DNA from: an uncultured Clostridia bacterium
GTDB lineage: Bacteria > Bacillota > Clostridia > Oscillospirales > Oscillospiraceae
NCBI GenBank assembly: GCA_945926565.1
Contig: CAMELY010000040.1
Location: forward strand, 1 to 10,224
DNA: 10,224 nucleotides
Direction of reading: 5' to 3'
Position 1 is the stretch's first letter, and the number at the start of each line of letters is the position of its first letter. The notes beneath the pieces were generated by a model. That model was not told the origin of the DNA. It made no database searches and worked only from the letters and a program-made list of their open reading frames with translations. The position numbers and the translations under genes are program-made. Shown here piece by piece: positions 380-9,165 of this stretch.

Positions 380-1330
380 TTATTTCAAATTTTTCCGAAC
401 CGCCTCCAGCACCCGCCGCTCCATCTCCGCCAGGTCCACGCCGGACTGCCGGGCGCCGGAGGCGGCGGCGTGGCCGCCTCCCCCCAGCAGAGCGCAGGTG
501 TCGGTGGCATTGAGATAGTCCGGGTCGGTGCGCAGGCTCAGCTTCCAGCTGCCGTCCGCCAGCTCCCGGAGGGTGGCGGCGGCCTTGACCCCCTCCACCT
601 GCCGGAGCAGGGAGGAGAGCTCCTCGCTGTCCGCCTCAGAGGCACCCACCTCTTCTATATCCCGGAGAGAGGTGGCGCCGATGACCACCTTGCCGTCCTC
701 ATAGTAGTGGGCGCTCTGGAGCAGGCGGCTCTCCAGCTCCAACCGCTTGCGGCTTTTCGTCTGGAAGCAGCGCTGATTGATCTCCTTGAAGAAGTCCCCG
801 TACTCCATCAGCTCCGCGGCGATCCGGTGGGTGGTGGGGGTGGTGTTGCTGTAGACAAAGCAGCCGCAGTCGGTGGAGATGGCCAGATACAGGGCCTTGG
901 CGATCTCCCCGTCCATGACCCCCATCTCTTCCTTGCAGACGCGGTAGATCACCTCGCCGCAGGCGGCGGCGGAGGCGTCCAGGCAGAGGTTGGGGGCGTA
1001 GTGCTCATTGGAGGGGTGGTGGTCGATGCAGAGCTCCGCCTTGCCCTTATACCCCTCAAACTCGGGGGGAAACAGATTCTCCGTGGCGATGTCCACCGCC
1101 ACAATGTGCTCGGGGACATAGTCCTCCGGGGCGAACCAGGGCTGAATATCCCCCAGATAGGTGGCGGTGACCCCCAGATTGGGGGCAACCCAGACGGTCT
1201 TGCCCTTTTTCCGCAGGGCGGCGCACAGGGCGGCGGCGCAGCCTAACGTGTCCCCGTCGGGACGGATGTGGGTGAGAATAAGGAAGTTGTCCCGCTCCAG
1301 CAGCCAGCGGGCGGCCTCACGTTCTGTCAT
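380..1330 (-). CDS. nrnA: DHH-family bifunctional oligoribonuclease/PAP phosphatase (NrnA)
   Basis: A cytoplasmic Mn-dependent phosphoesterase. NrnA proteins degrade 2-5 nt RNAs to mononucleotides, and many also dephosphorylate 3'-phosphoadenosine 5'-phosphate; some relatives hydrolyse pApA. The 316-residue length matches the family. Motifs seen: THIRPDGDTLG at 20-30 (motif I), VAVDIA with Asp80, the eponymous IDHH at 102-105, a TDCGCF motif with Asp154, and the DHHA1 glycine-rich substrate loop GGGGHAAASG at 283-292. All expected metal and substrate residues are present. The ATG at 1330 lies inside the end of rbfA (14-base overlap), pointing to translational coupling; a GGAGG lies about 12 bases upstream within rbfA. 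The order rbfA-nrnA-truB is the usual one in Firmicutes. A c-di-AMP/pApA-specific relative cannot be excluded from sequence alone. Confidence 0.93.
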   Translation of the reverse strand: MTEREAARWLLERDNFLILTHIRPDGDTLGCAAALCAALRKKGKTVWVAPNLGVTATYLGDIQPWFAPEDYVPEHIVAVDIATENLFPPEFEGYKGKAELCIDHHPSNEHYAPNLCLDASAAACGEVIYRVCKEEMGVMDGEIAKALYLAISTDCGCFVYSNTTPTTHRIAAELMEYGDFFKEINQRCFQTKSRKRLELESRLLQSAHYYEDGKVVIGATSLRDIEEVGASEADSEELSSLLRQVEGVKAAATLRELADGSWKLSLRTDPDYLNATDTCALLGGGGHAAASGARQSGVDLAEMERRVLEAVRKNLK

Positions 1331-1676
1331 GCTCTTTGGCCTCCAGGTCGTTCATCAGCTGAATGATCTTGGCGCCCTCGCCAATGGAGTTGTCCAGGAT
1401 AAACTGGAGCTCCGGGGTGTGGCGCAGATTGAGGGCCCGGCTCAGCTCCCGGCGGAGGTAGCCGGAGGCGGACTTCAGGCCCCGGCGGATCTCCTTCTCA
1501 TCCCCCTGATCCAGGGAGCTGATAAAGACCTTGCAGGAGCCCAGATCGCTGGCGGTGTCCACCCGGACGATGGACAGCAGGTGGCCGCCCACCCGGGGAT
1601 CCTTCACCGTCCGCAGCAGGGCGGACAGCTCCCGCTGAATGTCCTCGTTGATGCGGCCCAAACGATAGCTTGGCAT
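1317..1676 (-). CDS. rbfA: 30S ribosome-binding factor RbfA
   Basis: RbfA binds the 30S subunit near the 5' end of 16S rRNA (helix 1), assists late maturation and supports growth in the cold. It is a single KH-like domain protein. The 119-residue product matches the usual length. It opens MPSYRLGRINEDIQRELSAL, has the conserved DPRV at 26-29, and has the central VRVDTASDLGSCKVFIS segment followed by RHTPEL-x-FILDNSIGEG-x-KI near residues 86-104. The ATG at 1676 was chosen over a long upstream extension because AAGGAG sits 7-8 bases before it and the protein then begins where RbfA begins. Its 3' end overlaps nrnA by 14 bases. Upstream, instead of direct contact with infB, there are about 300 bases of palindromes and a structured repeat. 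Confidence 0.95.
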   Translation of the reverse strand: MPSYRLGRINEDIQRELSALLRTVKDPRVGGHLLSIVRVDTASDLGSCKVFISSLDQGDEKEIRRGLKSASGYLRRELSRALNLRHTPELQFILDNSIGEGAKIIQLMNDLEAKEHDRT

Positions 1677-1703: not shown

Positions 1704-1816
1704 CAGGTGCAGGAGGCAGGAGCACCGTTGTGCCTGTTCTGCCTCCTGCACCGGGGTTTTGGTATGGGGTTGTAGAGGCCGTTCATGAACGGCCCCTGGT
1801 GACAGCTCCTTGTCAC
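1704..1816. other. Cluster of three palindromes upstream of rbfA
   Basis: Three separate inverted repeats lie between the structured repeat and the rbfA ribosome binding site. The first is a 14-bp perfect stem, GGTGCAGGAGGCAG (1706-1719) with CTGCCTCCTGCACC (1739-1752), enclosing a 19-base loop that contains GCAC/GTGC. The second is an 18-base perfect palindrome, GGCCGTTCATGAACGGCC (1777-1794). The third is GTGACA/TGTCAC (1799-1804 and 1811-1816). None is followed by a T-run on either strand, so they do not look like intrinsic terminators. They would be part of the rbfA leader if the operon message runs through from infB. Function unknown. Confidence 0.55.
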
Positions 1817-1821
1817 ACGTC

Positions 1822-1979
1822 AGCCTCGCAGAGTTCCGCCAGCTTGCTGGCGGAATCAAATGAAATCCGTTTTTCGGACGGACATGTGCCGGCCGAAAAA
1901 CACAGGGAGGCCGGGAGTGTGCCCGTAAGGGCGCGCGGTTCGGCCGCACACTCCAAGAAAATGCTTGCATTTTCTTGGA
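1822..1979. repeat. Dispersed structured element, copy 1 (infB-rbfA gap)
   Basis: Read on the plus strand, the element is a row of hairpins around a nearly invariant core, and it recurs at 8479-8641. Hairpins here: CTC-GCA-GAG (1825-1833); A, a 9-bp stem with CTTG loop (1834-1855); B, a long stem with an A/G mismatch and loop ACATGTG (1869-1901); GCCC-GTAA-GGGC (1921-1932); GCGG-TTCGG-CCGC (1935-1947); and D, a 12-bp stem TCCAAGAAAATG with loop CTTG (1952-1979). GGAGTGTG (1914-1921) can also pair with CACACTCC (1947-1954), closing a branched core in competition with D. Stems A, B and D differ in sequence from copy 2 yet pair fully. CTTG and GTAA loops favour the plus strand as the RNA, which is antisense to the operon. 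There is no coding capacity consistent with both copies. Confidence 0.8.
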
Positions 1980-1984
1980 AGAGT

Positions 1985-4384
1985 TTATGCCTCCACCTGC
2001 TCCATCTGGAAGCACTCGAAGATGTCGCCCACCTTGATGTCGCTGAACTTCTCCAGGCCGATGCCGCACTCGAAGTTGGTGGCGACCTCCTTCACGTCGT
2101 CCTTGAACCGGCGGAGAGAGGCGATGGAGCCCTCGTGGATGACCACGCCGTCCCGGACGAGCCGGATCTGGGCGTTGCGGACAACCTTGCCCTCCTTGAC
2201 GTAGCAGCCTGCGATAATGCCGGCGCCGGTGATCTTGTAGACCTCCCGGACCTCCACACGGCCCAGCTCCACTTCCTTGAACTTGGGGGCCAGCATGCCC
2301 TTCATGGCCGCCTCGATCTCCTCGATGCAGTCGTAGATGACCCGGTACAGCCGCACGTCCACCTTGTCCCGCTCGATCATGGTGCGGGCCACGTTGTCCG
2401 GACGGACGGAGAAGCCCACGATAATGGCGTTGGAGGTGGCGGCCAGCATGACGTCGCTCTCGTTGATGGCGCCCACGCCGGAGTGGATGACGTGCACCCG
2501 CACCTCGTCGTTGGACAGCTTCTCCAGATTCTGGCGCACTGCCTCGGCGGAGCCCTGGACGTCGGCCTTGACGATGACCTTCAGCTCCTTCACCTCGCCC
2601 ACCTGGATCTGGTCGAACAGGTCGTCCAGGCTCACCTTCTTGGCGGCGGGGGCGGAGAGGGCGTCCTTCTTCTCCTGCTTGCGCTGCTCGGCCAGCTCCC
2701 GGGCCATCCGCTCGTCCGCCACGGCGTAGAAGTCGTCGCCGGCGGAGGGCACCTCGGCCATACCGGTGATCTCCACCGGCACAGAGGGGCCGGCGGCCTT
2801 GACGGGCTTGCCCCGGTAATCGGTCATGGCGCGGACACGGCCCACGGCGGTGCCGGCGATGATGATGTCGCCCTGCTTGAGGGTGCCGTTCTGCACCAGC
2901 AGGGTGGCCACAGGGCCGCGGCCCTTGTCCAGACGGGCCTCCACCACGGCGCCCCGGGCGGCCCGGTTGGGATTGGCCTTCAGCTCCCGCATCTCGGCCA
3001 CCAGCAGCACGTTCTCCAGCAGGTCGTCGATGCCCTCGCCGGTCTTGGCGGAGATGGGGCAGATAATGGTGTCGCCGCCCCAGTCCTCAGACAGCAGGCC
3101 GTACTGGGTCAGCTGCTGCTTGATGTTCTCGGGGTTGGCGTTGGGCAGATCCATCTTGTTGATGGCCACCACGATGGGGATCTCGGCGGCCTTGGCGTGG
3201 TTGATGGCCTCCACCGTCTGGGGCATAATGCCGTCGTCGGCGGCCACCACCAGGATGGCGATATCGGTGACCATGGCGCCCCGGGCGCGCATGGCGGTAA
3301 AGGCCTCGTGGCCGGGGGTATCCAGGAAGGTGACCACCTTGTCCCGGCCGGTCTCCTCGTCCTTGCCCACCGTCACCTGATAGGCGCCGATGGCCTGGGT
3401 GATGCCGCCCGCCTCGCCGGCGGTGACGTTGGTGGAGCGGATATAGTCCAACAGGGAGGTCTTGCCGTGGTCGACGTGGCCCATGACCACGATGACCGGG
3501 GGACGGGAGACCAGATCCTCCTCCTTGTCCTCGGCGGTGTCGATCAGCTTCTCCTCGATGGTGACGACAACTTCCTTTTCCACCTTGCAGCCCATCTCCT
3601 CGGCCACAATGGCGGCGGTGTCGAAGTCGATGATCTCGCTGAGAGAGGCCATGACGCCCATCTTCATCAGCTCTTTCACCACGCTGGCGCCGGTCTTCTT
3701 CATCCGGCTGGCCAGCTCGCCCACCGAGATCTCGTCAGGGATCTGCACCTTCACCGGGGCCTTTTTGGCCACCTCCTGCTGGAGCCGGCGCATCTGCTGC
3801 TTCTGCTCCTCCTGGCGGCGCTTGGCGCCCTGAGCGCCCTTGCGCTTTTGCTGGCTGCGGTTGCTCTTGAGCTTCTGCTTGCCCTGCTGCATCTTGTCCG
3901 CCTTGTCGGGGGCCAGCTCATCCAGACGGGCGTCATACCGGTCCAGGTTGACGTCGGCGCTCTTGCGGGTGTTGACCACCTTTTTCTGAGGCACCCGGCT
4001 CACCGAGGCGTCCGCCGGAGCGGCCTCCTCCTGGGCGGGGGCAGCGGCAGGCTGCTGCTCCTGGGGCTTGGCCGGCTGCTGGGCCTTGGGCTGCTGCTTC
4101 TGGGCAGGCGCGGGGGCGGGCTTCTGGCCGGCCTTGGGAGCCGGAGCGGCCGCCTTGGGGGCGGCGGGGGCCAGCACCTCCTCCAGGCTGGAGACCTGGT
4201 TGTGCTGGGTCAGATACTCAAAGATCAGGGAGAGCTCCATCTCGTTGAGGGCAGCCATATGGCTGGAGGGAGTCTGAGCGTATTTGGTCAGAATTTCCGT
4301 GATCTTTTTGGAGCCCACAGACTTGCCCTTGATCTTAAAATCCTTGGCTACCTCGTGGACTCTGTACTTCATGTCAATACCCAA
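1985..4384 (-). CDS. infB: Translation initiation factor IF-2
   Basis: GTPase that brings fMet-tRNA to the 30S subunit and promotes 50S joining. With the chosen start it has 799 residues. Domains: an N-terminal IF2_N-like helix bundle (about 4-70); an Ala/Pro/Gln/Lys-rich low-complexity linker (about 71-205, strongly basic toward its end); a second IF2_N domain (about 215-280); then the G domain with G1 GHVDHGKT (302-309), G2 GGITQAIG (326-333), G3 DTPGH (355-359), G4 NKMD (409-412) and G5 SAK (445-447). Beta-barrel domains and the C-terminal fMet-tRNA-binding domain follow. The start is taken as TTG at 4384 because AGGAGG (4398-4393) is 8 bases away. GTG at 4393 overlaps that site, and ATG at 4372 is 20 bases from it. 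It is flanked by ylxQ upstream and a structured repeat downstream. Confidence 0.97.
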
Positions 4385-4411
4385 ATGGGACACCTCCTAT
4401 AATTGAAGGCC

Positions 4412-7616: not shown

Positions 7617-7687
7617 CAGCGGGAGAAGGATTCGAACCCTCACATACAGAGTCAGAGTCTGCTGTGCTACCCTTACACAATCCCGCT
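7617..7687 (-). tRNA. tRNA-Gln (anticodon CUG)
   Basis: Cloverleaf on the minus strand: acceptor AGCGGGA/TCCCGCT, D-arm GTGT-AAGGGTA-GCAC, anticodon stem GCAGA/TCTGT around loop CTCTGAC (U33, anticodon CUG, A37), a 4-base variable loop ATGT, and T-arm GAGGG-TTCGAAT-CCTTC. The discriminator base is G73, as expected for tRNA-Gln. CCA is not encoded (CTG follows), so it must be added by nucleotidyltransferase. The gene has its own strong promoter at 7726-7753 and a terminator at 7584-7613, so it is a single-gene unit convergent with the ferritin-like gene. CUG reads the CAG codon, which should be abundant in a GC-rich genome. Confidence 0.93.
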
Positions 7688-7841: not shown

Positions 7842-8423
7842 ATGGATTGGGAGAGCCTGCGGCAGACCTGTGAGCAGTGCCATAACTGTCCCCTGGGAGA
7901 GACCCGCACCAATCTGGTGTTCGGGGACGGCAATCCCAGGGCCAAGCTGATGCTGGTGGGCGAGGGCCCGGGCCAGCAGGAGGATCTCTCCGGCGTCCCC
8001 TTTGTGGGCCCGGCAGGGCAGCTGCTGGACCGGATGCTGGAGATCATCGACCTGGACCGGAGCCGCTACTATATTACCAACATCGTCAAATGCCGCCCGC
8101 CCCACAACCGGGATCCTCTGGCCCAGGAGCAGGACGCCTGCATCGGCTATCTGCGCACCCAGACCCGGCTGATCCGCCCCAAGCTGATTGTCTGCCTGGG
8201 CCGCATCGCCGCCATGCGGCTGATCCGTCCGGACTACCGGATCACCCGGGAGCACGGCCAGTGGGTGCAGAAGGGGGACTTCTGGATGACCGCCATCTAT
8301 CACCCCTCCGCCCTGCTCCGGGACGAGAGCAAGCGGCCGGAGGCCTTTGACGATCTCATCGGCATCCGGGACAAGATCCGGGAAGTCTGCCCGGAGATCT
8401 ACGGAGACCGGCCGGCGGACTGA
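7842..8423 (+). CDS. Type-4 uracil-DNA glycosylase (4Fe-4S)
   Basis: Removes uracil from DNA arising by cytosine deamination or dUTP misincorporation, starting base excision repair. The 193 residues fit family 4 of the UDG superfamily. The four cluster cysteines are placed as expected: Cys13 and Cys16 (C-x2-C), Cys84 in VKCRPP, and Cys100. Catalytic and binding motifs are GEGPGQQED at 40-48 (motif A), YITNIVKCRPPHNRD at 77-91, and HPSALLR at 154-160 (motif B). A central LIVCLG strand precedes the last third, as is typical. AGAGGAGG lies 7 bases before the ATG. No terminator is evident after the stop; the structured repeat at 8479-8641 lies between this gene and mazF. Archaeal-type and bacterial type-4 enzymes cannot be split further here, but the family is clear. 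Confidence 0.94.
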   Translation: MDWESLRQTCEQCHNCPLGETRTNLVFGDGNPRAKLMLVGEGPGQQEDLSGVPFVGPAGQLLDRMLEIIDLDRSRYYITNIVKCRPPHNRDPLAQEQDACIGYLRTQTRLIRPKLIVCLGRIAAMRLIRPDYRITREHGQWVQKGDFWMTAIYHPSALLRDESKRPEAFDDLIGIRDKIREVCPEIYGDRPAD

Positions 8424-8478
8424 AATACGGCCCGGAAAGGATTGTCTATCAATTTGAAGCAGGACTGAAAGTTTAAGA

Positions 8479-8641
8479 AGCCCTCCGCAGGAGTTTTGTT
8501 GCGTCAGCAACAAAATAAAACGAAATCCGTGCTTTTAGCCGGACCTGTGCCGGCAAAAAGCACACAGGGAGGCCGGGAGTGTGCCCGTAGGGCGCGCGGT
8601 TCGGCCGCATAATTCCAAACAAATGCTTGCATTTGTTTGGA
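8479..8641. repeat. Dispersed structured element, copy 2 (udg-mazF gap)
   Basis: Second copy of the element at 1822-1979, in the same orientation on the plus strand. Hairpins: CTCC-GCA-GGAG (8483-8493, one pair longer than copy 1); A, TTTTGTTGC-GTCA-GCAACAAAA (8494-8515); B, GTGCTTTT-A-GCCGG with loop ACCTGTG (8529-8563); then a core nearly identical to copy 1; and D, TCCAAACAAATG with loop CTTG (8614-8641). Hairpins A and D have exactly the same stem and loop lengths as in copy 1. The branched-core closing stem is weaker here: GGAGT (8576-8580) pairs with ATTCC (8612-8616), including one G-U, after which pairing is lost. It fills most of the 373-base gap between the two genes; the rest holds only the mazF promoter and leader. 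Confidence 0.8.
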
Positions 8642-8708
8642 GATCCTGCCGCACCCCGTCGCATTTCGCCGCATAGGCTGGACTATCCCCGTTTTTCTGC
8701 CGGCCGGG

Positions 8709-8714
8709 TATAAT
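8709..8714 (+). promoter_or_regulatory. Possible -10 box for mazF
   Basis: A perfect TATAAT with no good -35 at the standard distance and no TGn extension. It would start transcription near 8721, leaving a leader of about 75 bases to the GTG at 8797 or about 13 bases to the ATG at 8734. It lies 68 bases after the structured repeat. Confidence 0.4.
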
Positions 8715-8796
8715 CCCGCCGCCCTTGGGGAGAATGAAAGTACCTCGTTACATAGGATGTGTGACGGGTAGATTTGATTCGGCGGAGTGTGAGATT

Positions 8797-9165
8797 GTGG
8801 ATACCAGCGTCAGAAGAGGAGACATTTTTTACGCCGACCTGAGCCCGGTGGTGGGCAGCGAGCAAGGCGGCGTCCGGCCCGTGCTGATCATTCAGAACGA
8901 CATGGGCAACCGGCACAGCCCCACGGTGATCGCGGCGGCCATTACCTCCCAGCTCAATAAAGCAAAGCTGCCCACCCATATCGAGCTGATCGACCAGCAC
9001 TGCGGCCTGACCCGGGACTCGGTGGTTCTGCTGGAGCAGATCCGCACCCTGGATAAGCGGCGGCTGCGGGAGCGGATGGGCCATCTGGACGAGGCAATGA
9101 TGGAGGAGGTAGACACCGCCATCGCCGTCAGCTTCGGCCTGCGCCCCCGGGAGCGGGAGGTATAA
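8797..9165 (+). CDS. mazF: MazF/EndoA (PemK-family) mRNA endoribonuclease
   Basis: Ribosome-independent endoribonuclease toxin, close in sequence to Bacillus subtilis EndoA (NdoA), which cuts at UACAU. With the GTG start it has 122 residues: [20 protein letters not shown] at 6-25, catalytic Arg27 in GVRPVL and Thr50 in AAIT (equivalent to Arg25 and Thr48 of EndoA), then KAKLPTH and [12 protein letters not shown] at 73-84. GTG at 8797 places the start where the family begins and has GGCGGAG 9-15 bases upstream. An in-frame ATG at 8734 would add 21 residues with no family match. No antitoxin gene (MazE/EndoAI type) is visible upstream, where the structured repeat lies, or downstream, where a terminator follows at once. 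The antitoxin may be elsewhere, or this may be a stand-alone enzyme. Confidence 0.93.

Follow-up and report, generated by a model that had tools for sequence, protein, structure and literature searches.

BOX, ERIC, Correia and REP repeats are small, dispersed, intergenic and hairpin-rich, as is the element described here. REP or BIME sequences consist of a single palindrome with a GTAG-type head and are mobilised by a Y1 (RAYT) transposase. To our knowledge, neither IS1182-type ends nor duplications of a whole target hairpin are known for BOX, ERIC, Correia or REP repeats. DDE transposases join the ends of an element to staggered target positions, and direct repeats of up to 60 bases are found in the IS1182 family. 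Two staphylococcal members of this family, IS1272 and TnSha1, target hairpins that are often terminators and share no sequence consensus, according to the accessible parts of two accounts (PMC4923244, PMC5678879). In those parts, the target hairpin of IS1272 is partly deleted or replaced with no duplication reported, and no small non-autonomous or structured derivative of either element is described. In the model drawn for IS1272, attack at the 3' feet of a cruciform leads to replacement of the stem-loop, and attack at the 5' feet to duplication of the whole stem-loop (PMC5678879, Fig. 13). Prokaryotic MITEs, QMITE among them, are shorter than 500 bases and have terminal inverted repeats and target duplications; their transcripts fold stably and some yield small RNAs, as stated in the accessible part of a review from which the term IS1182 is absent (PMC10969869).

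Here we analyse a stretch of 10,224 nucleotides (the window) from the draft genome of an uncultured Clostridia bacterium of the Oscillospiraceae, which holds two copies of a multi-hairpin element. We are fairly confident that this element is a dispersed mobile element (a MITE) that duplicates a predicted terminator hairpin whole, that an IS1182-family transposase acting in trans likely moves it, and that the segment at 1822-1979 is likely a decayed copy of it. The transposase family and the hairpin targets are the same as for IS1272 and TnSha1; the whole target hairpin is duplicated in the present family, whereas for IS1272 such a duplication is a path of the model only in the accessible parts of the accounts. 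The duplications of QMITE2 measure 7-9 bp in the accessible part of the review (PMC10969869), compared with 19-61 bases, mostly a whole hairpin, in this family.

Results

Two collinear copies of a multi-hairpin element

A first-pass annotation of the window had pointed out two collinear segments, at 1822-1979 (copy 1) and 8479-8641 (copy 2), with paired changes in their stems, and the sequence bears this out: the mini-hairpin, hairpin A, hairpin B, the core and hairpin D align in the same order. Both copies are real and lie on the + strand, but their extent is larger than described, and the draft genome carries the element at 11 places rather than two. Local alignment with another copy (L101) extended copy 1 to 1809..1982, with a match of 141.8 bits to covariance model R1 at 1821-1979. 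Copy 1 aligned in this way to a copy with a short left end, starting at the end motif of the latter, and its left part CTTGTCACACG is similar to the end CAGCTTGTCAAAGAACC of L101 and of an IS1182 copy (L124). Copy 2 extends by local alignment over 8436..8651, with an R1 match of 174.7 bits at 8478-8641; its counterpart in L004, a copy of 244 bases, is the stretch from position 13 to 227.

Copy 1 begins with the mini-hairpin CTC-GCA-GAG (1825..1833), which was read from the sequence and is conserved in alignment A2. It is followed by hairpin A (P1; 1834..1855, arms TTCCGCCAG/CTGGCGGAA), hairpin B (P2; 1869..1901, with the 7-nt loop ACATGTG at 1882-1888), the core with the inner hairpin C (P3; 1905..1951) and hairpin D (P4; 1952..1979, arms TCCAAGAAAATG/CATTTTCTTGGA). 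The corresponding parts of copy 2 are the mini-hairpin CTCC-GCA-GGAG (8483..8493), also read from the sequence, P1 (8494..8515, arms TTTTGTTGC/GCAACAAAA), P2 (8529..8563, loop ACCTGTG at 8543-8549) and P4 (8614..8641, arms TCCAAACAAATG/CATTTGTTTGGA). All these parts are given on the + strand; in both copies P1 was assigned from sequence, fold and covariation and P4 from sequence, repeat families and covariation, and the core of copy 1 from repeat families, fold and covariation. The core is nearly identical between the two copies and corresponds to the repeat families D14 and D15. Compared with dinucleotide shuffles, the folds of copy 1 and copy 2 had z-scores of -5.54 and -6.48, respectively, and none of 200 shuffles equalled either of them. 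The reverse strand of copy 1 also folded better than its shuffles (z -5.92).

Copy 1 fills 174 of the 311 bases between ORF 1985..4393 (-) and ORF 1317..1676 (-), which we take to be infB and rbfA. Copy 2 lies downstream of ORF 7842..8423 (+), presumably a uracil-DNA glycosylase-like gene, and upstream of ORF 8725..9165 (+), presumably a MazF/PemK-like gene with an uncertain start codon; no sigma-70-type promoter and no terminator-like site were found at 8380-8800, around this copy. The genus gave 30 infB loci, and rbfA adjoins infB in 21 of these; the element was matched in the locus of the own genome only. At the orthologue of the copy 2 locus (L018) the gene order is kept and the element is absent. 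The sole tRNA match of the window, at 7617-7687, lies away from the element, and a tRNA-derived origin was rejected.

Other repeats were seen in addition. The infB-rbfA gap of several sister species (L329-L334) contains the short repeats GTTAGCTCTTAGCTTTTAGCC and GCAATTAGCAATGTGCAATG, and a separate imperfect palindrome, CCCTCATCCGTCACGGC ... GACTGATGAGGGG, lies between two genes at 222-349 of the window, in an arrangement like one in L101; it is possibly another dispersed repeat of the same bacterial group.

Distribution of the family

The own genome was one of 14 among 40 in which BLAST with copy 1 gave matches, and each of its 11 places was found at an E value of 2.4e-19 or better. Covariance model R1, built from 24 copies (alignment A1), had matches in 50 of 148 relatives; a covariance search of related genomes, proposed in the first-pass annotation, returned many copies and not just two. 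Model R2 retained just 11 pairs, P1 having been misaligned by MAFFT, and was set aside. Model R3 was built from 57 diverged copies (alignment A4) and was run against the order and a sample of the phylum with stricter filters and a limit on the number of candidates scored, so that the resulting counts are lower bounds. Among 245 genomes of the order, at least 32 carry the element, and they belong to families f1, f3, f7, f13, f15, f16, f19 and f23; in the phylum sample it was found in at least 2 of 398 genomes, both of f1, the family of the window. In a search of fewer genomes, G030 and G136 of family f7 gave 39 and 41 matches. The element was also matched (E <=0.01) in 8 of 80 named loci that had been fetched for another gene, one of them from Flavonifractor sp. 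An10 (L058). By these loci, the relatives belong to the Oscillospiraceae and to neighbouring Clostridia, with gut and rumen as common sources.

No Rfam family fits the element. Searching the window against Rfam 15 (E <=5) gave nothing over it, and in 20 fetched loci (E <=1) the matches over or beside the elements were weak and far under gathering: naRNA4 (25.9 of 59.5 bits) and BTH_s1 (22.9 of 74 bits) in L221, with anti-hemB in L284 at 25.3 of 49.5 bits. The Rfam comparison suggested earlier therefore ended with no match above the gathering score over the element. A kinship with IS200/IS605, HEARO or group II introns was considered and dropped, since there was no Rfam match and the ends point to IS1182.

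Covariation and strand bias in the body

Of the 40 pairs in alignment A4, 39 have both partners substituted in one copy or more. Pairing holds in 95.5% of the cells, against 68.9% after shuffling, and the covariation score of 0.638 falls to 0.179 on shuffling and to no more than 0.113 when the partners are slid. Covariation over many copies, which had been put forward as a check of the two-copy observation, was thus found at many pairs. The long-range helix of model R1 (5 pairs) is kept in only 70.2% of the cells; it is probably a trait of the own genus.

Because A4 was fitted to R1, which favours pairing, P1 and P2 were re-measured with a hairpin finder that scores Watson-Crick pairs only. 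Among 79 distinct P2 hairpins, the + strand exhibited 36 G-T against 4 A-C mismatches, with a binomial p of 2e-7 that is uncorrected for kinship and includes a few mis-found hairpins. The 49 P1 hairpins, a few of them also mis-found, gave 6 G-T against 4 A-C and no strand bias. On the fitted A4, the ratio of wobble to A-C was 40:4 for P1, 20:0 for P2, 100:1 for P3, 7:5 for P4 and 15:9 for the long-range helix; a crude unfitted scan of P3 that mixes several hairpins gave 65:41. If only double-stranded DNA mattered, G-T and A-C mismatches would be equally common, and the ratio in P2 therefore suggests selection on RNA. We infer that P2 is under selection as an RNA read from the + strand, P3 probably and P1 perhaps. 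In 44 of 160 elements, P3 contains a motif that could form tandem G-A pairs.

The body might instead not be RNA at all, its stems being kept perfect by DNA processes, either template-switch correction of quasi-palindromes or selection on cruciforms. Hairpin P4, beside the right end, agrees with this explanation, since it gave no evidence of strand choice (7 wobble and 5 A-C among 672 cells) and its arms are nearly perfect Watson-Crick; the 6:4 ratio of P1 in the unfitted scan and the good folding of both strands point in the same direction. The wobble bias of P2, on the other hand, speaks against it, as do the 7-base P2 loop, closed by G..A in 36, A..G in 17 and A..T in 4 of 57 rows, and the unpaired bases at columns 54, 93 and 96 of A4, which are conserved throughout. 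We judge this DNA-level explanation to be somewhat improbable. By its covariation and the strand-biased wobble in one stem, the element may also be a functional RNA. A covarying body of several hairpins is unusual for a MITE.

Duplication of a whole hairpin around the element

A locus-specific hairpin brackets many of the copies, once on each side. The best alignment score between left and right flanks was 36 or more at 67 of 167 distinct loci; of 831 random pairings of left and right flanks, 1 scored as high. These 67 take in two nested cases (L180, L228), and three of the loci (L106, L171, L172) share a single insertion site. Seven of the 11 places in the own genome have duplicated flanks and two (L010, L011) are cut by contig ends. 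The remaining two are the window copies, where no duplication was detectable (left-right scores of 15 and 16); both are likely decayed copies of the element. In a second set of loci, 12 of 19 element copies outside f7 had duplicated flanks, one of which (L395) repeats element sequence and was excluded from the repeat analysis. The duplications also reach beyond f1, to G659 of family f13. In f7, examined with long flanks in G030 and G136, none of 21 copies had a duplicated flank and IS1182 ends were not seen.

The repeat set comprised the 67 loci and 11 of the 12 positives of the second set, 78 in total, which became 76 in 63 clusters after removal of the two nested cases. The repeats of the 63 clusters have a median length of 34 bases (range 19-61) and are mostly a whole hairpin. 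Their median folding energy is -23.6 kcal/mol. Control segments of the same length from the same loci (1260 in number) have a median of -7.0, and 48 of the 63 clusters lie under the 5th percentile of the control folding energies. With their A and T tracts and their location at gene ends, the duplicated hairpins look like predicted intrinsic terminators. At two loci (L292 of G216 and L305 of G602), the duplicated flank is a non-palindromic stretch of 28-29 bases resembling a gene end with its stop codon.

Filled and empty forms of one site were found in the own genus. A 31-bp hairpin is present once in G018 and G017, with matching DNA on both sides, and once at the same locus of G002, where the right side matches and the left is 548 bases of other DNA. 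The same hairpin is present twice in G004, G042 and G021, around 223, 222 and 329 bases of element, respectively; the locus pattern had no match in the remaining 26 of the 32 genomes. One hairpin without the element and two around it show that the element was inserted and the whole hairpin duplicated; formally, the empty sites could also have arisen by precise excision.

Non-mobile structured RNA genes or cis-regulators, flanked by tandem terminators that were selected in place, would also produce strong covariation and would accommodate the f7 copies that have no duplicated flank. This explanation is nevertheless highly improbable in our view: the hairpin is single in the three genomes without the element and double in the three that carry it, the presence of the element is patchy (one of the 30 infB loci, and the empty orthologue of the copy 2 locus in L018), and its ends resemble those of IS1182.

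Size, subfamilies and inserts

Among 65 copies with duplicated flanks, the length between the repeats is 175-329 bases, and 213-250 bases in 50 of them; without inserts, the element would measure about 175-250 bases. By length, 175-329 bases are too short to encode transposases of 439-476 residues. In the own genus, copies with duplicated flanks have an additional hairpin at their right end.

Eight loci (L106, L114, L274, L275, L284, L285, L287 and L289) have extra inserts in the body, tens of bases long and carrying hairpins, at several positions, the remainder of the element being intact. A second subfamily has short left ends (L278-L281 of G046, L137 of G010, and L101 and L138, which are one locus of G003) and a right-end hairpin GAGGCTGTCAAAAACACTTTTTTGACAGCCTC, which reads GAGACTG..CAGTCTC in G003 and is near-perfect in L280; duplicated flanks were scored at 5 of its 6 loci, the exception being L278. 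A pattern search for perfect end hairpins matched in 2 of 32 genomes, in another subfamily. The high-copy members of f7 (G030, G118 and G136; L212-L221, L374-L393) have neither IS1182 ends nor duplications and are often followed by recurrent hairpin modules, e.g. TCGCGGCAAATTGGTAAG...CGATTTGCCGCGA, which gives them a modular look like that of BOX elements.

Ends shared with IS1182 insertion sequences

Many elements begin with CAGNYTGTCAAAAAAG, and IS1182 copies have CAGCCTGTCAAAGAAG, CAGTCTGTCAAAAAAGG and CAGTCTGTCGAAAAAG. Agreement between the ends of the element and of IS1182 was seen with L101, L142, L144 and L124, the best being that of L101, whose start CAGCTTGTCAAAGAACC is identical over 17 bases to the far end of the insertion sequence of the own genome (L124). 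Of 65 elements with duplicated flanks, 38 have a left-junction motif, AG.YTGTMR, which was found in just 1 of 65 control windows; it is absent in the other 27 elements (e.g. L106 and L171), whose ends are diverged or unrecognised. A looser right-end motif is present in 29 of the 65 and absent in 36, and the right end of the own genus has GAG instead of CAG.

The own genome contains one IS1182-family transposase gene (NF033551, 381 bits, cut-off 270) with Pfam DUF772 and DDE domains, and the left end of this insertion sequence comes after a hairpin. Fourteen IS1182-like loci were scanned: identical palindromes flank two of them, measuring 34 bases at L142 (G121) and 30 bases at L144 (G123), and no flanking palindrome repeat was found at the other 12, many of which are fragmentary or cut by contig ends. 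The present family is akin to IS1182 in its ends, with transposase relatives in the same order and two insertion sequence copies between palindromes, and differs from it in being too short for a transposase and in having a conserved multi-hairpin body. In L125, an IS1182 locus, the hairpins at the two ends are different. Upstream of the IS1182 transposase start in L124 and L125, a stable hairpin was also observed that has a TATAAT-like motif within the loop or close to it, suggesting a promoter buried in a palindrome.

In the order sample, 9 of 32 element genomes had an IS1182 transposase (E <=1e-20), against 4.2 expected (Fisher p 0.012, two draws of 245 being taken as identical genomes). The other 23 gave no match at this threshold; in these genomes either the transposase was lost or missed in drafts, or another enzyme is at work.

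The shared ends, the duplication of a whole target hairpin and the empty site lead us to class the element as a MITE of the IS1182 type, which a transposase of that type probably mobilises in trans. The same ends and target duplication point away from REP or BIME. The first-pass annotation had put forward two readings, structured RNAs dispersed as a family or a mobile palindrome of the REP kind; the family is indeed dispersed, mobile and covarying, but by its ends and target duplication it appears IS1182-type rather than REP-like.

The body could also predate the IS1182-type ends and be independent of them, having been captured by them in f1 and f13 and spreading in f7 by a different route. 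The f7 copies, in high numbers (39 and 41), share the domain of mini-hairpin, P1 and P2 and have neither ends nor duplications, G030 has no IS1182 transposase match, and duplications occur outside f1, in G659 of f13, all of which fits such a capture. The f7 copies may, however, be old and decayed or have been moved by a transposase since lost, and the f7 sample with long flanks is two genomes and 21 copies only. We regard the capture as a serious possibility, rated a little short of even.

Discussion

For the IS1182-type MITE, the following course of events may be proposed. An IS1182-family transposase would act in trans on the shared ends of the element; the target hairpin would be extruded as a cruciform, and the transposase would join the element ends at the foot of each arm. 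Gap repair would then copy the whole hairpin to both sides of the element, an outcome corresponding to path 3b-6b of the IS1272 model (PMC5678879, Fig. 13). The neighbouring genes would be left with a terminator on either side of the element, which would make insertions nearly harmless and would help to explain the spread of the family. Selection would meanwhile act on the body (P2, probably P3 and perhaps P1) as a folded + strand RNA. A bolder reading, which we offer tentatively and consider rather doubtful, is that of a mobile non-coding RNA gene: a structured RNA between IS1182 ends that duplicates a terminator on insertion, would form its own insulated transcription unit harming neither neighbour, and would have spread in this way through the whole order.

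That IS1182 members target palindromes is already in print, in the IS1272 and TnSha1 accounts (PMC4923244, PMC5678879). In the open PMC literature, we found no IS1182 MITE, no observed duplication of a whole terminator and no description of this RNA family. The present family brings comparative evidence, with an empty site, for the duplication of an entire target stem-loop, which is otherwise a path of the IS1272 model only, as far as the accessible accounts go. It also adds a large covarying structured family without a match in Rfam 15; since sister species provide both filled and empty sites, its role is directly testable. Each insertion would restore a terminator, which suggests how such elements could reach dozens of copies.
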